Below are positions 1 to 11,119 of a DNA stretch of 64,000 nt, one piece after another. The stretch covers positions 1 through 64,000 of the forward strand of contig JAGNLM010000006.1 of assembly GCA_017999615.1 (NCBI GenBank), written 5' to 3'. Under the pieces are notes generated by a model. That model saw only the letters and a program-made list of their open reading frames with translations. It did no database searches and had not been told where the DNA came from. The translations under genes and the position numbers were made by a program. This DNA comes from Gammaproteobacteria bacterium (GTDB lineage Bacteria; Pseudomonadota; Gammaproteobacteria; JAABTG01). Position 1 is the stretch's first letter. Each line of letters begins with the position of its first letter.

Positions 1-114
1 GAACTCAACAGCCTGATCGGCGGGCGCGATGCGGGCATGGTGCTCTACACCGCGTGGAGCGAGCGCGCCCTGCGCCAGATTGCCAAGCGCTGGCGTATCC
101 CGCTGCCGCCATGA
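1..114 (+). CDS. 3' end of an unidentified prophage gene (partial)
   Basis: An open frame enters from the left edge and ends at a TGA at 112-114, giving 37 residues of the C-terminus, ending in IPLPP. The stop overlaps the ATG of the next small gene by an ATGA junction, a typical sign of translationally coupled phage or operon genes. The visible tail is basic and helical-looking (ALRQIAKRWR) but I do not recognise the family. Its only context is the prophage-like gene run that follows. Confidence 0.5.
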   Translation, partial: ELNSLIGGRDAGMVLYTAWSERALRQIAKRWRIPLPP

Positions 115-236: not shown

Positions 237-598
237 CCGTCCTGCGCGAGCTGCTGGCCGACGCCCTCGCCCGCGTAGAGGCGCTCGAGGCGGCCGAGCG
301 GGCGAGAGATGTACGTGAGCGGCAGGCAGAGCTGCTGAATCGCGCAGCGGCCGCCGTGGACCCGCTGGCGAGCCGCTGGCAGCGTGCCCAAGCCCTCGCC
401 CGCCGGGTGGCCGCCCGTGGCCGCAGCGCCCGGCCGCCGGCGACCGAGGCCGACCGATGGGTGGACCAGGCCCTCGGCCTCGGGGCGCTGCCGGCCAGCG
501 CGCGCCGCCTGTGGGAGCTGTTGACGCCCGAGCGTCAAACCGGAGCGGCTACGCTCCCCCCATCACCGCCGACCCGTGGCGGACTATGGGATGACTGA
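224..598 (+). CDS. hypothetical coiled-coil prophage protein, 124 aa
   Basis: The frame is chosen from a GTG at 224 preceded by GGAGG at 215-219, and it overlaps the end of the 41-residue gene upstream. The first half is a long charged Ala/Glu/Arg-rich helix, roughly residues 5-80, likely a coiled coil. The tail is Pro-rich. It lies directly before the capsid-like gene, with an ATGA-type overlap at 591-598. Position and helical character would suit a scaffold-like or other head-morphogenesis protein, but this is inference from context only. The reading frame stays open further upstream to about 29, but that would overlap two other genes. Confidence 0.5.
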   Translation: MSELAVLRELLADALARVEALEAAERARDVRERQAELLNRAAAAVDPLASRWQRAQALARRVAARGRSARPPATEADRWVDQALGLGALPASARRLWELLTPERQTGAATLPPSPPTRGGLWDD

Positions 599-1721
599 CA
601 TGACCCAAGACGAATACGCACGCGGACTCGAAGACATCGCGGTCCGCCAGGGCGTCGAGCGCGCCAAGAGCGCTCGCACCGAGCGCCTGGCGGCCGGCCG
701 GTACAGCCGCGAGGACCTGGTTGACGCGCTGGACGATTACATCGGCGAGCTGGTCGGCGACCCCTCCAGCGACCCGCACCCGCTCGCCAGGCACCTGCAC
801 CGGGATAGCTCTCTGCGCCGCGTGCTGTACGAATACCACGGCGCCGACACCGCGCAGGACCTGCACCGTGCCTTGGCGTTCTCGGACTGGCCGCAGCTGA
901 TCGCAACCCGCGTCACCCGTGCTGTGACGCAGCGCCCCTCGGGCCTCACCGAGCACCGTGCCCTCGTCCTGCCTGCGCCGCTCGACACCTACCACCCGTC
1001 GGCGTTCTTCGAGACGGCATCGAGCGATGCCATCGCGCCCATCCCGACCGGCGGCGGCCCGTGGCCCATCCCTGAAATCGACATCAGCGACGCGACCGTC
1101 ACCGGCGCGCCCTCGCGCTACGCGGTGCGGGTGGCCATCGGCCGGGCGTTGTTCTTGACCGCGAGTCTGTCGCCCGTCGAGGCGCTGGTCACCGAGCTGC
1201 ACAACGTGCTGTTGCGCGCCGAGAGCAAGGCGTTCTCGACCTACCTGGAGAGCTCGCCGCAGTTGGGGGATGGCAACCCGCTGTTCGTCGACGGCACCAA
1301 CGCCATCGCCAGCGGCAGCGGCGGCGAGCCGTCCGCCACGACGATCGGCGTCGCGCTGCAGACCCTGCGCACGCAGGCCAATGCGGCCGGCGCCCGTAAC
1401 GCGGTGCGCGGCAAGTATCTCGCGGTGCCACCCGCGCTGGAGGCGACTGCGCTCACCGCGCTGGGAGCTATCGACCCGCACGACCGCCGCGGCTTGCAGG
1501 TGGTGGTCCTGCCGTACGCCAGCAGCTCGACCGCCTGGTGGCTGTTTGCCGCCCCCCGCGAGGCCGCCTCGATTGCCCGCCTGTCGGTCGGCGATGCGGT
1601 CGATCCGGTGGTCGAGACCCGTCCCGTCCCGATGCAGGATGCGGTCGACTTCCGGGCGGCGGTGGACTTCGGATTCATCGCCTTGAGTCGTGCCGGCTGC
1701 TTCTATAACCCAGGCGCATAA
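591..1721 (+). CDS. probable phage major capsid protein (HK97-like fold)
   Basis: This 376-residue protein resembles the capsid domain found in Mu-like and related prophage head proteins. The segment with FVDGTNAIASG, a helix, then GKYLAVPPALEA around residues 228-285 matches the usual capsid pattern of a target loop, a backbone helix and a 'pre-formed values' strand. The C-terminus (VDFRAAVDFGFIAL, GCFYNPGA) fits the terminal P-domain strand of such proteins. The N-terminal 80 residues are helical and charged. Starts at ATG 591 (ATGA overlap with the gene before) and ATG 600 are both plausible; GTG 576 is less likely. It is followed by a strong hairpin, so it probably ends its transcript. 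The product would form the virion shell. The family call rests on remembered patterns, not a search. Confidence 0.6.
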   Translation: MTDMTQDEYARGLEDIAVRQGVERAKSARTERLAAGRYSREDLVDALDDYIGELVGDPSSDPHPLARHLHRDSSLRRVLYEYHGADTAQDLHRALAFSDWPQLIATRVTRAVTQRPSGLTEHRALVLPAPLDTYHPSAFFETASSDAIAPIPTGGGPWPIPEIDISDATVTGAPSRYAVRVAIGRALFLTASLSPVEALVTELHNVLLRAESKAFSTYLESSPQLGDGNPLFVDGTNAIASGSGGEPSATTIGVALQTLRTQANAAGARNAVRGKYLAVPPALEATALTALGAIDPHDRRGLQVVVLPYASSSTAWWLFAAPREAASIARLSVGDAVDPVVETRPVPMQDAVDFRAAVDFGFIALSRAGCFYNPGA

Positions 1722-1733
1722 GGTTTCTGCCGT

Positions 1734-1757
1734 CTGCCCCCGTCGCGACGGGGGCGG
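1734..1757 (+). terminator. hairpin after the capsid-like gene
   Basis: A perfect 18-bp palindrome (half-arm CCCCCGTCG) at 1737-1754, extendable by a few pairs, lies 12 bases after the capsid gene stop. There is no downstream T-run, so it may be a weak intrinsic terminator or an mRNA 3'-end stabiliser. Confidence 0.4.
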
Positions 1758-1934
1758 CAGGCGTTAGTCGGCGAGTGGCCTGCCTCGGACCAACCAACCC
1801 CGACTGCCAGCGGGCGCACCATTACCTCGGGCGCCGCGGCTGGCCCCCCGGAGCCCCCGGCCGGGCCCGGGGGTCGCACCGGCCGGACAGTTCACGCCCA
1901 CCCCGGCGGGCTCAAGCCGGGGCCCTCCCCACCG

Positions 1935-1961
1935 TATAGCGTTACCGCCCGTAACGCTATA
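1935..1961. repeat. GTTAC/GTAAC inverted repeat, site A
   Basis: Perfect 11-bp arms (TATAGCGTTAC and its complement) flank a 5-bp spacer, CGCCC. The same geometry recurs at 2014-2040, centre to centre 79 bp away. The right arm includes TATAAG, which resembles a -10 element. It is a probable operator or iteron of the integrated element. Confidence 0.65.
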
Positions 1962-1987
1962 AGGTGACGCCGCGGACATCTGCGGTG

Positions 1988-2016
1988 TTGCGACCGAGCC
2001 GTTAGTGGTCTACCTT
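1988..2016 (+). promoter_or_regulatory. possible weak promoter for the SprT-like gene
   Basis: TTGCGA (1988-1993) and TACCTT (2011-2016) are separated by 17 bp. They match the sigma-70 consensus at 4/6 and 3/6 positions. The inverted repeat at 2014-2040 overlaps the -10 and start region, as a repressor operator would. The match is weak, so this is only a candidate. Confidence 0.3.
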
Positions 2017-2040
2017 AGCGTTACTGCCGGTAACGATAAG
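2014..2040. repeat. GTTAC/GTAAC inverted repeat, site B, overlapping an RBS
   Basis: Arms of 11 bp with one mismatch (CTTAGCGTTAC versus the complement of GTAACGATAAG) flank a 5-bp spacer, TGCCG. The right arm runs into the AAGGGG ribosome binding site (2038-2043) of the gene starting at 2050, so a bound protein or an RNA hairpin here would interfere with expression. Confidence 0.65.
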
Positions 2041-2049
2041 GGGGTTGGC

Positions 2050-2682
2050 GTGGAAGATCATATTCGCCGGTGCCAGCACTGCGGGGCGTTCTTCACATCA
2101 CCGCGCCGGTCCGCCCGGTTCTGTTCCGCGCGGTGCCGCATCGGCAATCACCGCAATGGCTCGCGGCCGCTGTCGTCGGTCTGGCTTCGCCGTGCCGCTC
2201 GGGCCCTGGCGGGCGAGCTACTCGTGCCGCTGGGCGCAGAGGTCGCCGTCAACCGCCTGGATATCCATTTCAGTGAGTACCGCGAGAAGTCAGACAGCGG
2301 CGTCGAGCTTGGCGTCATCGGCGGCAAAGCATACGGTGGCCAGGACGCGATAACCATCGCCATTTCAGCCGATGCGGTGCTGGTGCTGGGGACGTTGTTG
2401 CACGAGCTGATCCACCTTGCGACCCCTGGCGAAGGACACGGCGGAAGGTTTGCCGAGGTCGCTCGCGAGCTAGGGTTTCTCCCCCCGGTCACTCAGTACA
2501 AGCCGAGCGCGACCCTGAAAGACCGGCTCAAGGCGCTTGCTCAGAAGCTCGGCCCGATGCCGATGCCCTTCGACCCACGCGTAAGCAAGACCGGGACAAT
2601 CAGGTTCAAGGCGCTGAAGGGTAGCCCCGACGTGTTTGTCCCCGTCGGCACCCCTGATTGGGTGCCCAAGCGCAAGCCGTAG
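2050..2682 (+). CDS. zinc-ribbon SprT-like metallopeptidase of the prophage
   Basis: The start is set at GTG 2050 because AAGGGG lies 6 bases upstream; the frame is open further left but would run through an operator-like repeat. The 210-residue product has an N-terminal zinc ribbon (C8xxC11 and C25xxxC29), then a basic segment. A metalloprotease-type HELIH motif lies at residues 118-122 with a further histidine at 130 (GEGHGG), the pattern of SprT-like (zincin) domains. SprT-like proteins are known or suspected proteases acting on DNA-bound proteins. Small versions with a zinc ribbon occur in phages and mobile elements, but their role is not established. It is a single gene between the capsid operon and the tRNA-Asn site. 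The substrate is unknown. Confidence 0.6.
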   Translation: MEDHIRRCQHCGAFFTSPRRSARFCSARCRIGNHRNGSRPLSSVWLRRAARALAGELLVPLGAEVAVNRLDIHFSEYREKSDSGVELGVIGGKAYGGQDAITIAISADAVLVLGTLLHELIHLATPGEGHGGRFAEVARELGFLPPVTQYKPSATLKDRLKALAQKLGPMPMPFDPRVSKTGTIRFKALKGSPDVFVPVGTPDWVPKRKP

Positions 2683-2740
2683 CCGTTAGCCGCTAACAGC
2701 CCCCTGGTCAGGCAACTGGCCGGGCCTTTCTGCGTCTGGA

Positions 2741-2825
2741 GGCCGCCCCACGCGCGCGCGGGCGCGACGACTTCCCGGCAAGATTGCCGGAAGGTTGCAG
2801 GGGCCGCCCCACGCGCGCGGGCGCG
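2741..2825. repeat. duplicated GC-rich block around a hairpin
   Basis: The 12-mer GGCCGCCCCACG followed by an alternating CG run occurs at 2741-2766 and again at 2802-2825. Between the copies, 2771-2794 forms a hairpin with near-perfect 10-bp arms (GGCAA/TTGCC core, one bulged C). The two copies differ by one CG dinucleotide. Confidence 0.6.
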
Positions 2826-2848
2826 TGGGAGGGGGTCGCCGGCGGGGA

Positions 2849-2865
2849 CCGTTACCGCGTAACGG
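2849..2865. repeat. GTTAC/GTAAC inverted repeat, site C
   Basis: Arms CCGTTAC and GTAACGG (7 bp, perfect) are separated by CGC. It shares the core with sites A and B but has a 3-bp spacer. Confidence 0.6.
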
Positions 2866-2908
2866 GCGGGCGACTGCACACGGGCGGGGCGGGTTGTGTG
2901 CAGCGGGC

Positions 2909-2930
2909 TGGGTAACAGCGCTGTTACCCA
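2909..2930. repeat. 22-bp perfect palindrome, site D
   Basis: The half-arm TGGGTAACAGC is followed directly by its exact complement, giving a 22-bp palindrome. Here the two half sites are everted relative to sites A-C (GTAAC first, GTTAC second). Confidence 0.65.
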
Positions 2931-2981
2931 AGCAGGATCGCGGGGCGGGGTCGCCTGGCGACAGGGCGAGCAGATCCCGGG

Positions 2982-3003
2982 CTGTTACCCAAACTGTTAC
3001 CCA
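2982..3003. repeat. tandem direct half sites, site E
   Basis: CTGTTACCCA occurs at 2982-2991 and again at 2994-3003, a 12-bp period. It is identical to the right arm of the 22-bp palindrome at 2909-2930, which makes a shared binding protein likely. Confidence 0.6.
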
Positions 3004-3050
3004 ATTCCTCCGCGCCGTCTCGCTTTTCTCGTGTAAACCCTTGGTTTCTT

Positions 3051-3126
3051 TGGCTCCCCGGGACGGGCTCGAACCGCCGACCTAGTGATTAACAGTCACC
3101 CGCTCTACCGACTGAGCTACCGGGGA
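3051..3126 (-). tRNA. tRNA-Asn (GTT)
   Basis: The minus strand folds into a complete 76-nt cloverleaf including encoded CCA. The acceptor stem is TCCCCGG/CCGGGGA with discriminator G, and the anticodon loop reads GTT within CTGTTAATC. It decodes Asn codons AAC/AAU. The prophage-like DNA lies immediately on its 3' side (lower coordinates), the usual arrangement when an element has integrated into a tRNA gene and restored it. The 3' end of this gene is therefore a likely attachment site. Confidence 0.95.
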
Positions 3127-3152
3127 AAAGCGCGACGTATCCTACTGGCGGC

Positions 3153-3187
3153 GCGGGAATGGGTCAACCTGAGGAAACCATTCCCGC
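3153..3187 (-). terminator. hairpin between the aminotransferase gene and tRNA-Asn
   Basis: Arms GCGGGAATGG (3153-3162) and the exact complement (3178-3187) flank a 15-nt loop. It lies 55 bases beyond the aminotransferase stop. No T-run follows on the minus strand, so it is only a possible terminator or processing structure. Confidence 0.35.
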
Positions 3188-3241
3188 CGGACGCGCGGCC
3201 GGCGGCCGCGCCGTCGGGCTGGCCATGGAGCCAGCGCCCCG

Positions 3242-4429
3242 TCAAGCCGGCCCGAGGAAGGCCGTGATGCGCTCCATGGCCTTTTCCAGGTTCGCCAGGC
3301 TCGTGGCGATGGAAATGCGCTGGAACCCCGGGGCGCCGAAGGCGGAGCCGGGAACGAGCGCGACGCCGGCCTCGCGCAGCAGCAGGTCCGCGAAGGACAC
3401 GTCGTCGGAGGCCCCCGTCGCACGCATGGCATCCCGGGTGTCGGGGAACAGGTAGAAGGCCCCCTGGGCCGGGAGGCAACGGACCCCCCGGATGCCGTTC
3501 AGGGCCCCCAGCACGTAATCGTGCCGCGTCTTGAACGCCCGCACCATCTCGGCGATGAACGCCTGGTCGCCGTCGAGGGCCGCCTCGGCTGCGACCTGGG
3601 CAATGGAGGTCGGGTTGGAGGTGCTCTGGGACTGGATCTTGACCATGGCCCGGATCAGCGGCGCGGGGCCGGCGGCATAGCCGATGCGCCAACCCGTCAT
3701 GGAGTAGGCCTTGGAGACGCCGTTCAGCACGACGGTCCGGTCATAGAGGTCCGGCCGGGCCATCAGGATGTTCGCAAAGGGCTCGCTGCCCCAGGTGATG
3801 TGCTCGTACATGTCGTCGCTGGCGACGAGCACGTCCGGGTGCCGGTGCAGGACCTCGCCGAGTGCCGCGAGTTCGGCCCGCGTGTAGCAGACCCCGGTCG
3901 GGTTGGAGGGGCTGTTGATCACCAGCATGCGGGTGCGCGGCCCGATGGCCCGCTCCAGTTGCTCCGGGGTCAGCTTGAACCCGTGCTCGGAAGTGCCCTC
4001 GAGGATGACGGGGGTCCCGTCGGCCAGCAGCACCATGTCGGGGTAGGACACCCAGTACGGCGCGGGGATGAGCACCTCGTCCCCCGCGTCGAGCAGAGCC
4101 TGGGCGAGGTTGTAGAAGGTCTGCTTGCCGCCCACGGACACCACGACCTGCTCCGGGGCATAGGTGAGCCCGTTGTCGCGCTGGAGCTTGCGGATCACGG
4201 CCTGCTTCAGCGACGGGATTCCGTCGACCGCGGTGTACTTGGTGAAGCCGCGGTCCAGGGCCTGTTTGGCGGCGTCCTTGATGTGGGTGGGTGTGTCGAA
4301 ATCCGGCTCCCCAAGCCCGAGGTTGATGATGTCCTGGCCGGACGCCTTGAGCGCGGCGGCGCGGGCGCTCACGGCGAGGGTGGGGGAGGGCTTGATGCGC
4401 CGTACGCGCTGGGAGAGGCGGAGTTCCAC
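3242..4429 (-). CDS. class I PLP-dependent aspartate aminotransferase (Ibeta type)
   Basis: This 395-residue fold-type I aminotransferase transfers the amino group of aspartate (or a similar amino acid) to 2-oxoglutarate in the cytoplasm, using pyridoxal phosphate. Visible hallmarks are the substrate-side [10 protein letters not shown] near residue 38, the cofactor-site NSPSNPTG at 172-179, and the Schiff-base lysine K240 in [20 protein letters not shown] near the C-terminus should carry the carboxylate-binding arginine. It is full length for the subgroup. The start is GTG at 4429. The gene stands alone, with uvrB divergent upstream and tRNA-Asn downstream. Some members of this subgroup also accept prephenate, so the precise substrate is not certain. 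Confidence 0.88.
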
Positions 4430-4561
4430 GGCGAAGGTCCTGGTGCGGGAAGGGAGTGTCGGCCGGGAATTCTATACCAAGCGGGCGCGCTTGCCCCCGG
4501 GGCAGGCGCGCCGATCCGGGGGCAGGGGCTGCCGCGCCGGGGCGGGGCCGCCAGCGGGAGA

Positions 4562-4590
4562 TTGGCCCCCCCCGGTGGGGGCGCTATCCT
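4562..4590 (+). promoter_or_regulatory. candidate uvrB promoter giving a nearly leaderless mRNA
   Basis: TTGGCC (4562-4567) and TATCCT (4585-4590) are 17 bp apart, with 3/6 and 4/6 consensus matches. The uvrB ATG at 4598 lies only 7 bases after the -10, where transcription itself would start, and no Shine-Dalgarno sequence is visible. No LexA-type box (CTG-N10-CAG) was noticed. Confidence 0.35.
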
Positions 4591-4597
4591 GCGGCCC

Positions 4598-6649
4598 ATG
4601 TCCAGGCCATTGGAGCTGGTTTCGAGCTATGCACCGTCCGGCGACCAGCCGGACGCCATCCGCCGGATGCTCGAGGGGATCGAATCCGGCCTCGCCTGCC
4701 AGACCCTGCTCGGCGTCACCGGCAGTGGCAAGACGTTCTCGGTCGCGAATGTCATCCAGCACGTCCAGCGCCCGACCCTGATCCTTGCGCCGAACAAGAC
4801 GCTGGCAGCCCAGCTCTACGGGGAGATGCGCGAGTTCTTCCCGCACAACGCAGTCGAGTACTTCGTCAGCTACTACGACTATTACCAGCCGGAGGCCTAC
4901 GTCCCCTCGACCGACACGTACATCGAGAAGGACGCGTCGATCAACGAGCACATCGAACAGATGCGGCTCTCGGCGACGAAGGCGATTCTCGAGCGCAGGG
5001 ACGTGGTGATCGTGGCGACCGTCTCGGCGATCTACGGCCTCGGCGACCCGGACGCGTACATGAGCATGGTGTTGCACCTGGCGCGCGGACACCTGCTCGA
5101 CCAGCGGGAGATCCTGCGCCGCCTCGCAGAGCTCCAGTACGCACGCAACGAGCTCGAGCTCTCCCGGGGCACCTTCCGGGTGCGCGGGGACGTCATCGAC
5201 ATCTTCCCCGCAGAGAGTGAGCGGGACGCGATCCGCGTGGAGCTGCTCGACGACGAGATCGAGTCGCTCGGCTACTTCGATCCCCTCACGGGGGAGGTGC
5301 TGCGGAGAGTGCCGCGCCTCACCGTCTACCCGAAGAGCCACTACGTCACGCCCCGCGAGCGGGTGCTGGAGACGGTGGACGGGGCGCGCGCGGAACTGCG
5401 GGAGCGGCTCGAGCAGCTCCACCAGGCGGGTAAGCTGCTCGAGGCCCAGAGGCTGGAGCAGCGCACGACCTTCGACCTCGAGATGATGCAGGAGCTCGGT
5501 TACTGCAAGGGCATCGAGAACTACTCCCGCTACCTCTCCGGGCGCCGGCCGGGGGAGCCGCCGCCGACCCTCTTCGACTACCTGCCGCAGGACGCCCTGC
5601 TGGTGGTGGACGAGAGTCACGTCACGATCCCCCAGCTCGGCGGCATGTATCGGGGGGACCGCTCGCGCAAGGAGACGCTCGTCGAGTACGGCTTCCGGCT
5701 GCCTTCGGCCCTCGACAACCGCCCGCTTCGTTTCGACGAGTGGGAGCGGCTGATGCCCCAGGCGATCTTCGTGTCGGCCACCCCGGGCCCCTACGAGCTC
5801 GAGCACTCCGGGCAGGTGGTAGAGCAGGTGGTGCGGCCTACAGGGCTGGTGGACCCGGAGATCGAGGTCCGGCCCGCGGCGACGCAGGTCGATGACCTGC
5901 TCTCCGAGATCGTGCTGCGCGTGGCGGGTGGTGAGCGGGTGCTGGTCACGACCCTGACCAAGCGGATGGCCGAGGACTTTACCGACTTCCTCGGTGATCA
6001 CGGCATCCGGGTGCGCTACCTGCACTCGGACATCGAGACCGTGGAGCGGGTGGAGATCATCCGCGACCTGCGGCTCGGCGAGTTCGACGTGCTGGTGGGG
6101 ATCAACCTGCTGCGCGAGGGCCTGGACATCCCCGAGGTCTCCCTGGTCGCCATCCTGGACGCGGACAAGGAGGGTTACCTGCGGTCGGAGCGCTCCCTCA
6201 TCCAGACCATCGGGCGCGCCGCTCGCAACCTGCACGGCAAGGCGATCCTCTACGCCGACGGGGTGACGGGCTCCATGCGCCGGGCCATCGACGAGACCGA
6301 GAGGCGGCGCGCGAAGCAGCAGGAGTACAACCGCTCCCACGGGATCACGCCGAAGTCGGTGGAAAAGGCCGTGGCCGACATCATGGAGGGTGCGAGGAGC
6401 GGCCCGGTCGTTCCGGCGAGCCGGTACGCCCGCGTGGCGGAGGACCTCTCCGTCTACGCCGCGCTCGCGCCCGAACAGTTGAGGAAAAAGGTGTCGGAGC
6501 TCGAGGCCCAGATGTACCGGCACGCGGAGAATCTTGCATTCGAAGAGGCCGCGCGGCTGCGGGACGAGATCCGTCGGATCGAGGACCTCCACCTCGGGAT
6601 CGCGAAGGAGCCGGCGTCCCGGGGGCGGAGGCGCCGGGCGTCGGGTTGA
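4598..6649 (+). CDS. uvrB: excinuclease ABC subunit B
   Basis: UvrB is the damage-verifying helicase-like subunit of nucleotide excision repair. It is loaded by UvrA and recruits the UvrC nuclease. The 683-residue product has Walker A GVTGSGKT at 39-46, the damage-probing beta-hairpin region [15 protein letters not shown] at about 90-105, the Walker B DESH near residue 340, and the helicase motif VI segment QTIGRAARN near 545. A C-terminal UVR domain ([12 protein letters not shown], about 645-655) binds UvrC. The frame is open far upstream, antisense to the aminotransferase gene, but ATG 4598 gives the family N-terminus ([12 protein letters not shown]). No RBS is visible before it. It is a monocistronic-looking gene ending just before tRNA-Val. 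Confidence 0.97.
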
Positions 6650-6776
6650 GCGGTGCCCTCGGCAGCGCGCCCCAGACCCGTGCAGACCCCGCGGCACCCC
6701 CGGAGCGGGCCCCTTCGGTTGTCGGCGACGCACGCTTGCTCGCCGGGCGGGGATTCCGCTATCTTTACGGCCCCAC

Positions 6777-6851
6777 AGGCGCGTAGCTCAGTGGTAGAGC
6801 ACTACCTTGACATGGTAGTGGTCGGTGGTTCGATCCCACTCGCGCCTACCA
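6777..6851 (+). tRNA. tRNA-Val (GAC)
   Basis: A complete 75-nt cloverleaf with encoded CCA: acceptor stem AGGCGCG/CGCGCCT, D-loop AGCTCAGTGGTAGAGC, anticodon loop TTGACAT with anticodon GAC, and T-loop GGTTCGATCC. It reads Val GUC/GUU codons. It lies between uvrB and thrS and has its own hairpin terminator. Confidence 0.95.
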
Positions 6852-6858
6852 GAAAAAC

Positions 6859-6897
6859 AAGGGGTTGGCTGCGCAGGCTGGCCCCTTTGTCGTTTTT
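6859..6897 (+). terminator. intrinsic terminator after tRNA-Val
   Basis: Arms AAGGGG (6859-6864) and CCCCTT (6882-6887) enclose a GC-rich loop and are followed by a T-rich tail including TTTTT at 6893-6897. It sits 8 bases downstream of the tRNA. Confidence 0.55.
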
Positions 6898-6942
6898 GTC
6901 GCCCTGAGGGGCGACAACGGGGCCTCGCCCCTGGACGGGGCC
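6896..6942 (+). promoter_or_regulatory. thrS leader hairpins
   Basis: After the tRNA-Val terminator come two more hairpins. The first has 9-bp perfect arms TTGTCGCCC/GGGCGACAA (6896-6904, 6909-6917) with loop TGAG. The second has arms GCCCC/GGGGC around 6927-6941. In E. coli, ThrRS represses its own mRNA by binding tRNA-like hairpins upstream of thrS, so these could be an operator; no tRNA-Thr-like anticodon loop was recognised. Confidence 0.35.
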
Positions 6943-6963
6943 GTGACGAACTGAGTGCCTGAC

Positions 6964-8889
6964 ATGCCAATCATTACCCTGCCCGACGGTTCCCAGAAGG
7001 CGTTCGACCAGCCGGTGACGGTGGGGGAGGTCGCTGCCGCGATCGGCCCCGGACTGGCCAGGGCAGCGGTTGCGGGCCGGGTCGACGGCAGGCTCGTGGA
7101 CACGTCCCATCGCATCGACCGGGACGCCACGCTGGCGATCGTCACCGAGCGCGACCCCGAGGGCGTGGACGTCATCCGCCACTCCACCGCGCACCTGATG
7201 GCGCACGCGGTGAAGGAGCTCTTTCCCGAGACCCAGGTGACGATCGGTCCCGTGGTCGAGGACGGGTTCTATTACGACTTCTCCCGGGAGGAGCGCTTCC
7301 GTCCCGAGGACCTCGCGCTCATCGAGGCGCGGATGAAGGAAATCGCGAGCCGCGACCTTCCGGTCGAGCGGACCGAGATGGCGCGGGACGACGCGGTGCG
7401 CTTCTTCCTCGACCAGGGCGAGAAGTACAAGGCCGAGATCATCGCCTCCATCCCGGCCAACGAGACCCTCTCTCTGTACCGCCAGGGCGAGTTCGTGGAC
7501 CTCTGCCGCGGGCCGCACGTGCCCTCCACGGGGAAGCTGCGGGCCTTCAAGCTGATGAAGCTGGCGGGCGCCTACTGGCGGGGCGACTCGCGCAGCGAGA
7601 TGCTGCAGCGCGTCTACGGGACCGCCTGGGGGAGTCAGAAGGACCTGGACGCCTACCTCCATCGCCTGGAGGAGGCCGAGAAGCGCGACCACCGCAAGCT
7701 CGCCAAGCAGTTGGACCTCTTCCACCAGCAGGAAGAGGCGCCCGGAATGGTCTTCTGGCACGACCGGGGCTGGACCGTGTACCGCCTGGTCGAGCAGTAC
7801 ATCCGCGACGTGATCCGGGAGCACGGCTACACGGAGGTCCGGACCCCGCAGGTGATCGACCGCTCCCTCTGGGAGCGCTCCGGACACTGGGACAAGTTCC
7901 GGGAGAACATGTTCACCACCCGGAGCGAGAATCGGGACTACGCGGTCAAGCCCATGAATTGCCCGGGCCACATCCAGATCTTCAACCAGGGGCTGCGCAG
8001 CTACCGCGACCTGCCCCTGAGGATGGCGGAGTTCGGGTCCTGCCATCGCAACGAGGCCTCGGGGACGCTGCACGGCCTGATGCGGCTCCGGAACTTCGTC
8101 CAGGACGACGCGCACATCTTCTGCACCGAGGAGCAGCTGCAGCCCGAGGTCGCGGCCTTCATCGACCTGTTGTTCCGGGTGTACGCGGACTTCGGGTTCC
8201 AGGAGGTCATCATCAAGCTCTCCACCCGTCCCGAGCAGCGCGTCGGGGCGGACGAGGTCTGGGACCGGGCGGAGCAGGCGCTCGCCGTGGCCCTGGACGG
8301 CAAGGGGCTCGACTGGAAGCTGCAGCCCGGCGAGGGCGCGTTCTACGGGCCCAAGATTGAATTCTCGCTGCGGGACTCCATCGGGCGCGTCTGGCAGTGC
8401 GGGACCATCCAGGTGGACTTCTCCATGCCTGGCCGGCTCGGCGCCGAATACGTGGCCGAGGACGGTAGCCGAAAGGTCCCGGTCATGCTGCACCGGGCGA
8501 TCCTGGGCTCCATGGAGCGCTTCATCGGGATTCTGATCGAGGAGCACGCGGGCAAGCTGCCGGCCTGGCTCGCTCCGGTACAGGCCGTTGCCCTCAATAT
8601 CACCGATGGGCAGGCCGAGTACGCGCAGGAGGTCGTGAAAGTCCTGCGGAAACAGGGGTTCCGGGTCGAGTGCGACTTGAGAAACGAGAAAATCGGTCTT
8701 AAGATCCGCGAGCACACGCTGCAGCGGGTCCCTTACCTCCTCGTGCTGGGGGGGCGGGAGCTGGAAAACCGGACCGTGGCCGTTCGCACCCGCAACGGAG
8801 CCGATCTCGGGGCGATGCCGTTGGAGGGGTTCGCCGAGAAGCTCCGTGAAGAGGTGGCGAGCCACGGTCGAGTCGTTCTGGAGGGCTGA
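6964..8889 (+). CDS. thrS: threonyl-tRNA synthetase
   Basis: ThrRS charges tRNA-Thr and edits mischarged Ser-tRNA. The 641-residue product has the family order. The TGS domain begins ITLPDGS. The editing domain carries HSTAHLMAH (H73, H77, the same numbering as E. coli), the class II core follows with NCPGH and motif 2 [11 protein letters not shown], and motif 3 and the anticodon-binding domain end the protein. The start is ATG 6964 (family N-terminus [10 protein letters not shown]) rather than a GTG 9 bases earlier. It leads the translation operon thrS-infC-rpmI-rplT-pheS-pheT-ihfA; infC begins 2 bases after its stop, so the two are probably translationally coupled. Confidence 0.97.
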
Positions 8890-8891
8890 CA

Positions 8892-9407
8892 ATCACTGCG
8901 AAGACGGAGTACCGCATCAACGAGGAGATCACGGCTCGGACGATGCGCGTGGTCGGGCCGGAAGGCGAGCAGGTCGGGATCCTGTCCCGGGAAGATGCTC
9001 TCCGGATGGCAGAGGAAGCGGGTGTGGACCTGGTGGAGATCGCGCCCCAGGCGGACCCCCCCGTGTGCCGGGTCATGGACTACGGCAAGCACTTGTTCGA
9101 AGAGAGCAAGCGCAAGACCTCCGCGCGCAAGAGGCAACAGCAGGTCCAGGTCAAGGAGATGAAGTTCCGCCCTGCAACCGGGGAGGGGGACTACCAGGTC
9201 AAGCTGCGCAAGCTCGTCGAGTTCATCACCGAGGGCGACAAGGCCAAGGTGACACTGATGTTCCGTGGTCGCGAGATGGCCCACCAGGAACTGGGGATCA
9301 AGCTGCTACGGAGGGTCGAGGCCGATCTGGCCGAGATCGCGAAGGTGGAGCAGTTCCCGCGGCTCGAAGGCCGCTTCATGACGATGATGCTGGGACCGAA
9401 GAAATAG
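8892..9407 (+). CDS. infC: translation initiation factor IF-3 with an AUC start codon
   Basis: IF-3 binds the 30S subunit, prevents premature 50S joining and discriminates against non-canonical start codons. The 171-residue frame is read from ATC 8892. The family N-terminus (YRINEEI) lies upstream of the first ATG at 8943, and GGAGGG (8879-8884) is correctly spaced. Rare AUU/AUA/AUC starts are a known feature of infC that lets IF-3 repress its own synthesis. The N-domain ends near residue 90, followed by a Lys/Arg/Gln linker ([12 protein letters not shown]). The C-domain carries the MFRGREMAH motif. The gene follows thrS by 2 bases and precedes rpmI. Confidence 0.95.
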
Positions 9408-9436
9408 CGGATTCGGACCCTGACGATAAAGTCTCC

Positions 9437-9485
9437 GGCGGCGGTCCTGGGCGGACCGCCAAACGGGCGCAGTCCCTGCCGCCGG
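9437..9485 (+). promoter_or_regulatory. structured leader before rpmI (candidate L20 operator)
   Basis: An 8-bp hairpin (GGCGGTCC/GGACCGCC, 9440-9447 and 9453-9460) overlaps a CCGGCGG segment (9435-9441) that can alternatively pair with CCGCCGG (9479-9485). Mutually exclusive or pseudoknot-like pairing upstream of rpmI is how L20 autoregulation works in other bacteria; conservation here is not tested. Confidence 0.3.
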
Positions 9486-9515
9486 GGGTAGTAGTCGATA
9501 AACAGGAGTGCAGAC

Positions 9516-9713
9516 ATGCCCAAGATGAAGAGTAACCGGGGCGCGGCGAAGCGCTTCCACGCCACGGGCGGGGGCGGGTTCAAGCGGACCCAGGCCTTTC
9601 GCCGCCACATCCTCACCAAGAAGGCGACCAAGCGCAAACGCCAGCTGCGCGGCCCGGCCCAGGTGGCCGCGACCGACGTGCGGAACGTGCGCGGCATGTT
9701 GCCTTACAGCTAA
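9516..9713 (+). CDS. rpmI: 50S ribosomal protein L35
   Basis: This 65-residue basic protein of the large ribosomal subunit shows the family start [14 protein letters not shown] and the internal HILTKK segment. AGGAG lies at good spacing before the ATG. It sits in the canonical infC-rpmI-rplT order, 15 bases before rplT. Expression is expected to be coupled to rplT and repressed by L20. Confidence 0.97.
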
Positions 9714-9728
9714 GGGAGGAGGCCCAAG

Positions 9729-11119
<1,391 letters not shown>

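Follow-up and report, generated by a model that had tools for sequence, protein, structure and literature searches.

Predicted integrase arm-type sites and separate cargo-associated palindromes among the GTTAC/GTAAC sites at the right end of a tRNA-Asn island

The window analyzed here is a stretch of 64,000 nucleotides at the start of contig C6 of a 2.47-Mb gammaproteobacterial genome. An integrated element, which we call E1, is cut at the contig start, and the first 3.1 kb of the window are its right end. Comparison of contig ends and BLAST found 2 sibling elements, E2 and E3, in the same genome. The features of the E1 right end are collected in Table 1, from the end of a TerS-like helix-turn-helix (HTH) gene, whose E3 protein has weak matches to phrog_57 and phrog_66, through a capsid gene and a cargo gene flanked by 2 blocks shared with siblings, to the tRNA-Asn gene that was the target of integration. 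The 3' half of that tRNA gene comes from the element. The cargo gene starts at GTG 2050 or at GTG 2005. Among the viral contigs there are no close relatives of the metallopeptidase, the capsid protein or the E1 integrase, and the capsid protein has no match in phage records.

Table 1. Features of the E1 right end, in window coordinates.
Feature	Position	Strand	Evidence or remark
3' end of TerS-like HTH gene	1..114	+	85% DNA match to E3, where the gene is complete
Major capsid protein gene	576..1721	+	phrog_4523, E 2.9e-19
Block 1, non-coding, after the capsid gene	1779..1930		89-91% identical in E1, E2, E3
Predicted hairpin 1	1930..1966	+	16-bp stem, one mismatch; left edge of cargo segment
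Predicted hairpin 2	2012..2041	+	overlaps likely ribosome-binding sequence of cargo gene
Cargo gene, SprT-like metallopeptidase with Cys-cluster and HELIH	2050..2682	+	PF10263 below cut-off, phrog_6361; motifs
Block 2, right-end backbone	2702..2907		shared with E2 (86%); 2702-2768 also with E3
Short palindrome CCGTTACCGCGTAACGG	2849..2865		in backbone shared with E2, reading CCGTTGCCGCGTAACGG there
Two inverted putative arm-type sites (22-bp palindrome)	2908..2931	minus 2909-2917, plus 2922-2931	same 9-mer TGTTACCCA
Tandem pair of putative arm-type sites TGTTACCCAA	2983..3004	+	present at both E1 ends
50-bp att core	3049..3098, duplicated at G000:C8:97465-97514		exact match
tRNA-Asn gene, integration target	3051..3126	-	ARAGORN; Rfam tRNA

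Block 1 is a candidate cis-acting site. It has no match in the viral contigs and short matches only in other genomes. About 79 bp of non-coding sequence (window ~1824-1902) are identical in E1, E2 (L146) and E3 (L003), exceeding the conservation of their neighborhood, and this stretch is a candidate packaging or other cis-acting site. Just 3' of the capsid gene, window 1740-1808 has a weak match to the Rfam Proteo-phage-1 RNA, scoring 24.6 bits versus a gathering score of 42; beyond the tRNA, Rfam gives sub-threshold matches only.

The 3' end of the tRNA-Asn gene recurs without change on contig C8, at 97478, where the 50-bp core is duplicated. In a genome of the same genus (G003), the C8 flank, with a dihydroorotate-dehydrogenase-like gene, and the C6 flank, with an aminotransferase-like gene (both identified by inspection), are joined through one intact tRNA-Asn, which is the empty site. 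Because of the duplication and the uninterrupted site, C8 and C6 hold the 2 ends of one insertion. After the core, C8 carries in order a tandem repeat CTGTTACCCAACTGTTACCCAA, an inverted TTGGGTAACA, a tyrosine integrase, a second open reading frame (ORF), and a small gene for an HTH protein whose family matches are weak. The integrase lies 240 bp from the core and has the PF13356 arm-binding domain (E 2.4e-13).

Both siblings are inserted in tRNA genes other than that of E1. E2 has its left end on C15 and its right end at the far end of C6, and inspection identifies the tRNA gene of its core as tRNA-Arg(CCT); E3 has its left end on C4 and its right end at the end of C5. The breaks of contigs C4, C5, C6, C8 and C15 fall inside these 3 related elements, which share near-identical stretches: the end of C8 matches the start of C15 exactly over 127 bp, and the genes 3' of the E1 and E2 integrases are 96% identical. 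The window starts inside an element because the assembly breaks at such stretches of sibling elements. E1 would be about 9 kb long if its gap equals the corresponding E3 stretch of about 3.4 kb. Contig C21 was considered as the missing middle and rejected, as its ORFs look chromosomal and neither of its ends overlaps the element ends.

A preliminary description of this DNA had named 5 sites with a GTTAC/GTAAC core in what it took for the end of a prophage, and had suggested one protein with several binding modes for all of them. The 5 sites exist where it placed them, with the direct repeat corrected to 2983-3004 (TGTTACCCAA at 2983-2992 and 2995-3004), and with one mismatch in the 11-bp arms of the palindrome at 2014-2040. 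The palindrome at 1935-1961 is the inner part of a 16-bp stem (1930-1966) that contains a single mismatch, exceeding the longest stem in any of 200 shuffles. GTTAC or GTAAC occurs 10 times in 1771-3050, versus a mean of 1.7 and a maximum of 7 in 500 dinucleotide shuffles, which is about a 6-fold enrichment. Genome-wide counts come from pattern searches. GTTACN{1,8}GTAAC has 5 matches in the genome, 3 of them the window sites and a fourth within the right end of a sibling element, and the 6 copies of TGTTACCCAA are all at the ends of E1 (3 at the C6 end and 3 at the C8 end), compared to 1 occurrence of its reversed control pattern. The sites are specific to the element, as the preliminary description had supposed. 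One word, TGTTACCCA(A), makes up both the tandem repeat at 2983-3004 and the 22-bp palindrome at 2909-2930. TGTTACCCAA and AGCGTTAC, the word of the 1935 and 2014 palindromes, differ outside GTTAC, and the sites are at least 2 systems and not one family.

The first kind can be followed through related elements. In E1 the tandem pair is found 132 bp after the core on C8 and 66 bp before the core on C6, plus inverted copies. E2 has GTGGATCCCCGGTGGATCCCC and CTGGATCCCCTGTGGATCCCC as its pair at both ends, and E3 has GGCGACTAACTGGCGACTA. Two elements of other genomes, found through their capsid protein, are L132, in tRNA-Pro with a 49-bp core and the pair GCTTACCCTGTGCTTACCC, and L134, in tRNA-Leu with a 58-bp core and the pair GTAGCCCCAGCGTAGCCC. 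The geometry is common to all 5 elements, 3 of which are from one genome. At the integrase end a tandem 11-12 bp pair follows the core at a distance of 106-134 bp, and at the opposite end the pair precedes the core by 61-83 bp, in the same orientation at both ends and in each element with its own sequence. A shared tandem pair arose in 0 of 300 shuffles for each of the 5. The E1 integrase is 29% identical to that of E2 and has only a 56-residue local match to that of E3, and the repeated word changes with the integrase, 5 elements having 5 words. Tandem 11-12 bp pairs also stand directly 5' of the gene in 4 integrase homologs (L045-L048, 30-39% identical), all with PF13356.

We read the TGTTACCCAA sites as arm-type sites because of where they lie, because both arms of the att core have them, because they vary with the integrase, and because the integrase encoded beside att has an N-terminal arm-binding domain. 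That the tandem and inverted TGTTACCCAA pairs are integrase arm-type sites, and that the 1935 and 2014 palindromes are a separate hairpin feature of the cargo, is as a joint reading very probable. The tandem pair at 2983-3004 and the inverted pair at 2909-2930 would serve one att arm; the other would be served by the sites ahead of the integrase gene on C8, a matching tandem pair and one inverted copy. With the TGTTACCCAA sites gripped by the arm-binding domain, strand exchange in the 50-bp core would fall to the catalytic domain, and the inverted site near the integrase start may let the integrase repress its own gene. The E2 integrase would go with TGGATCCCC, not with TGTTACCCAA. The tandem-pair rule helps to locate arm sites and the true ends of islands, the sequence itself going with the integrase.

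The repeats have a further regularity. CCC stands at the same repeat position for 8 of 8 integrases with PF13356 (E1, E2, L132, L134, L045, L046, L047 and L048), in TGTTACCC, TGGATCCC, GCTTACCC, TGTAGCCC, TGGAACCC, CACACCC and so on. The E3 integrase has no PF13356 hit, and its repeat, GGCGACTA, is without CCC.

The TGTTACCCAA word is not unique to integrases, because unrelated phages have the same pair within their terS genes, as seen in 26 of 30 viral contigs. The gene there is a small-terminase-like gene beside a gpA-type large terminase, which invites the reading that the E1 copies are terminase-binding (cos/pac) sites lying near the att core by chance. We consider this very improbable, given that E1 has pairs flanking the core on either arm, none of them within a terS gene, and that in the siblings, whose integrases differ, these positions are taken by different words. 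In these contigs (L062-L091, e.g. L068 6259-6494) the pair reads TGTTACCCAAnnTGTTACCCAA and codes for VTQxVTQ, and the large terminase gene is downstream. Usually there is an inverted copy close to the start of the gene, about 180 bp upstream of the pair, as well as 2 more copies at 18-bp steps. This is a candidate cosB-like array.

The second kind of site belongs to the cargo. The right ends of E1, E2 and E3 have in common block 1 (1779-1930) and block 2 (2702-2768, and with E2 to ~2907). What lies between is 2 palindromes and the metallopeptidase gene in E1, short HTH-like ORFs and a longer related palindrome, TATAAGCGTTACCAGTAGTGGTAACGCTTATA, in E3, and almost nothing in E2, where the cargo-free right end has no such palindrome. 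Since the cargo of E1 and E3 has them and E2 is without, the AGCGTTAC palindromes go with the cargo and not with the integrase. As a trait of the whole family they were rejected, being absent from the capsid-bearing loci L131-L135.

Fold energies are -20 kcal/mol for palindrome 1 (z -5.7), -13.2 kcal/mol for palindrome 2 (z -2.4), and -27.4 kcal/mol for the E3 palindrome (z -7.8). The 7-bp palindrome at 2849 folds no better than shuffles and differs by one base between E1 and E2. The outer stem bases differ between copies with pairing kept, and the distance between the GTTAC and GTAAC halves is 8, 10 or 13 bp, depending on the palindrome. Because of this covariation and the varying half-site distance, an argument made on 3 sequences, we prefer hairpins over a rigid dimer site. 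If the metallopeptidase gene starts at GTG 2050, palindrome 2 covers its ribosome-binding sequence. The most likely function is that the 1935 and 2014 palindromes act as hairpins in the cargo-gene leader, the second of which would mask the ribosome-binding site. Reading the hairpins as intrinsic terminators was rejected, as there is no T run, and no terminator-like site was found in 1700-3060.

A serious rival for these 2 palindromes only is that they are not RNA hairpins but DNA operators of a dimeric regulator that acts on the cargo gene. In its favor, a single gene is preceded by 2 identically spaced copies at a distance of 79 bp from each other, and palindrome 2 overlaps the likely translation start region. 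We hold the operator reading to be possible but somewhat doubtful, since the copies keep their pairing although their outer stem bases are not the same, and the GTTAC halves of the E3 relative are spaced differently; leader hairpins are favored. As a widespread phage operator, AGCGTTAC-N5-GTAACGCT was rejected, being present in 13 viral contigs where a permuted palindrome is present in 19; in several of the 13 there are 2 or more copies.

The sequence shared with both siblings stops at ~1930, the start of hairpin 1, and a related hairpin is found in the different cargo of E3, from which one could argue that the AGCGTTAC hairpins are recombination or processing structures driving cargo exchange between the 2 fixed blocks. 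We regard such a role as highly unlikely.

Replication-origin iterons would be another explanation of the palindromes and repeats together. A phage replisome-organizer gene (L051, PF09681) does contain AGCGTTAC-N5-GTAACGCT, and L054 has it in tandem within a gene of unknown family, but the contig counts above amount to no palindrome excess in the viral contigs, the tandem pair is explained by the integrase, and the repeat CTGTCAG after the E3 helicase gene is a better origin candidate. We rate iterons as quite unlikely. The E1 right end showed no initiator gene, the middle of the element being missing. The AGCGTTAC...GTAACGCT palindromes in other contigs lie inside coding sequence, reading SVTxxNA, in genes for a LuxR-type HTH protein (L050, 5251 and 5331), a phage replisome organizer (L051, 510), and an unknown family in tandem (L054, 2643 and 2667). 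Inverted CTGTCAG or CTGTCGG repeats stand directly after a DUF3987 helicase gene in E3 (L126 12867-12966) and in a related phage contig (L166 3276-3480), and these arrays are a candidate replication origin.

What remains to be weighed is one phage repressor or activator binding all 5 sites in several modes. The shared GTTAC core and the strong local clustering would suit it, and a regulator gene could lie in the missing middle of E1. Against it, the sites are of 2 kinds outside GTTAC, the TGTTACCCAA kind varying with the integrase and the AGCGTTAC kind with the cargo, and the GTTAC halves are set at the 3 distances given above. We give one common regulator scarcely any credence. The C8 part of E1 has no AGCGTTAC palindrome, the middle of the element being missing. 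The part of the proposal that holds is that some of the sites would serve a DNA-binding protein of the element whose gene is outside the window; this would be the tyrosine integrase encoded at the other end, on C8. Neither a repressor or activator nor a replication initiator is called for by the tandem pair and the everted palindrome, which the integrase would explain. The apparent multi-mode regulator is resolved into ordinary integrase arm sites.

As to what E1 is, a satellite-like island with a capsid gene is more likely than the prophage first supposed, the visible set amounting to ~7-10 kb. Across E1 and its siblings that set is an integrase, an AlpA-like HTH protein, a primase, a helicase, a TerS-like HTH protein and one capsid gene. 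The order in E3, part of which is missing, is integrase, ORF, AlpA-like HTH, Toprim primase, DUF3987 helicase, ORF, TerS-like HTH, so that the combination of integrase, AlpA-like regulator and primase/helicase in a small element is found in this sibling; E1 itself shows the integrase and, on C8, the weakly assigned small HTH gene, and its gap would hold the others. L132 (2158-12395) and L134 (reverse, 904-10667) are complete islands of ~10 kb in tRNA genes, with an integrase, a primase or helicase-like gene, and a capsid gene, which in L134 encodes a fused protease-capsid. No large terminase or portal was found in L132 or L134 among the 10 proteins scanned. These elements point to a group of ~10-kb tRNA islands that carry a capsid gene, the rest of the virion not being seen so far.

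E1 is a candidate satellite, similar to a phage-inducible chromosomal island (PICI) or a PICMI. With PICMIs (PMC10803314) it shares the format of a small tRNA- or gene-integrated island with an integrase, a gene directly after or overlapping it, an AlpA-like regulator and a DUF3987-type primase/helicase. The integration site of PICMIs is fis, and they lack a capsid gene, whereas E1 is in tRNA-Asn with a capsid gene, and the cores seen here are in tRNA-Asn, tRNA-Arg and other tRNA genes, none in fis. The cf-PICIs (described in PMC10803314) are likewise satellite-sized with their own capsid gene, but average 14 kb; E1, read in part, shows capsid and TerS-like genes and no large terminase or portal. 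For the arm sites, one close likeness is to IntS of ICEMlSymR7A (PMC11963761), which has 5 arm sites in a 283-bp attP and negative autoregulation: in both cases several short repeated sites lie in both attP arms beside the integrase gene. Its consensus, TGKTGGTATC, is different, and it belongs to a conjugative element, unlike the capsid-carrying island for which we infer arm sites here. IntS of the KplE1 prophage has arm sites in the integrase promoter region (PMC2951348), and as in E1 these stand by a tRNA-derived core and overlap the region before the integrase gene; its motif has a TAAA core in the P' sites, and those sites are experimental whereas the E1 sites are predicted. Beside these systems, the arm sites, which are the main part of the finding, make a good instance of an already known kind.
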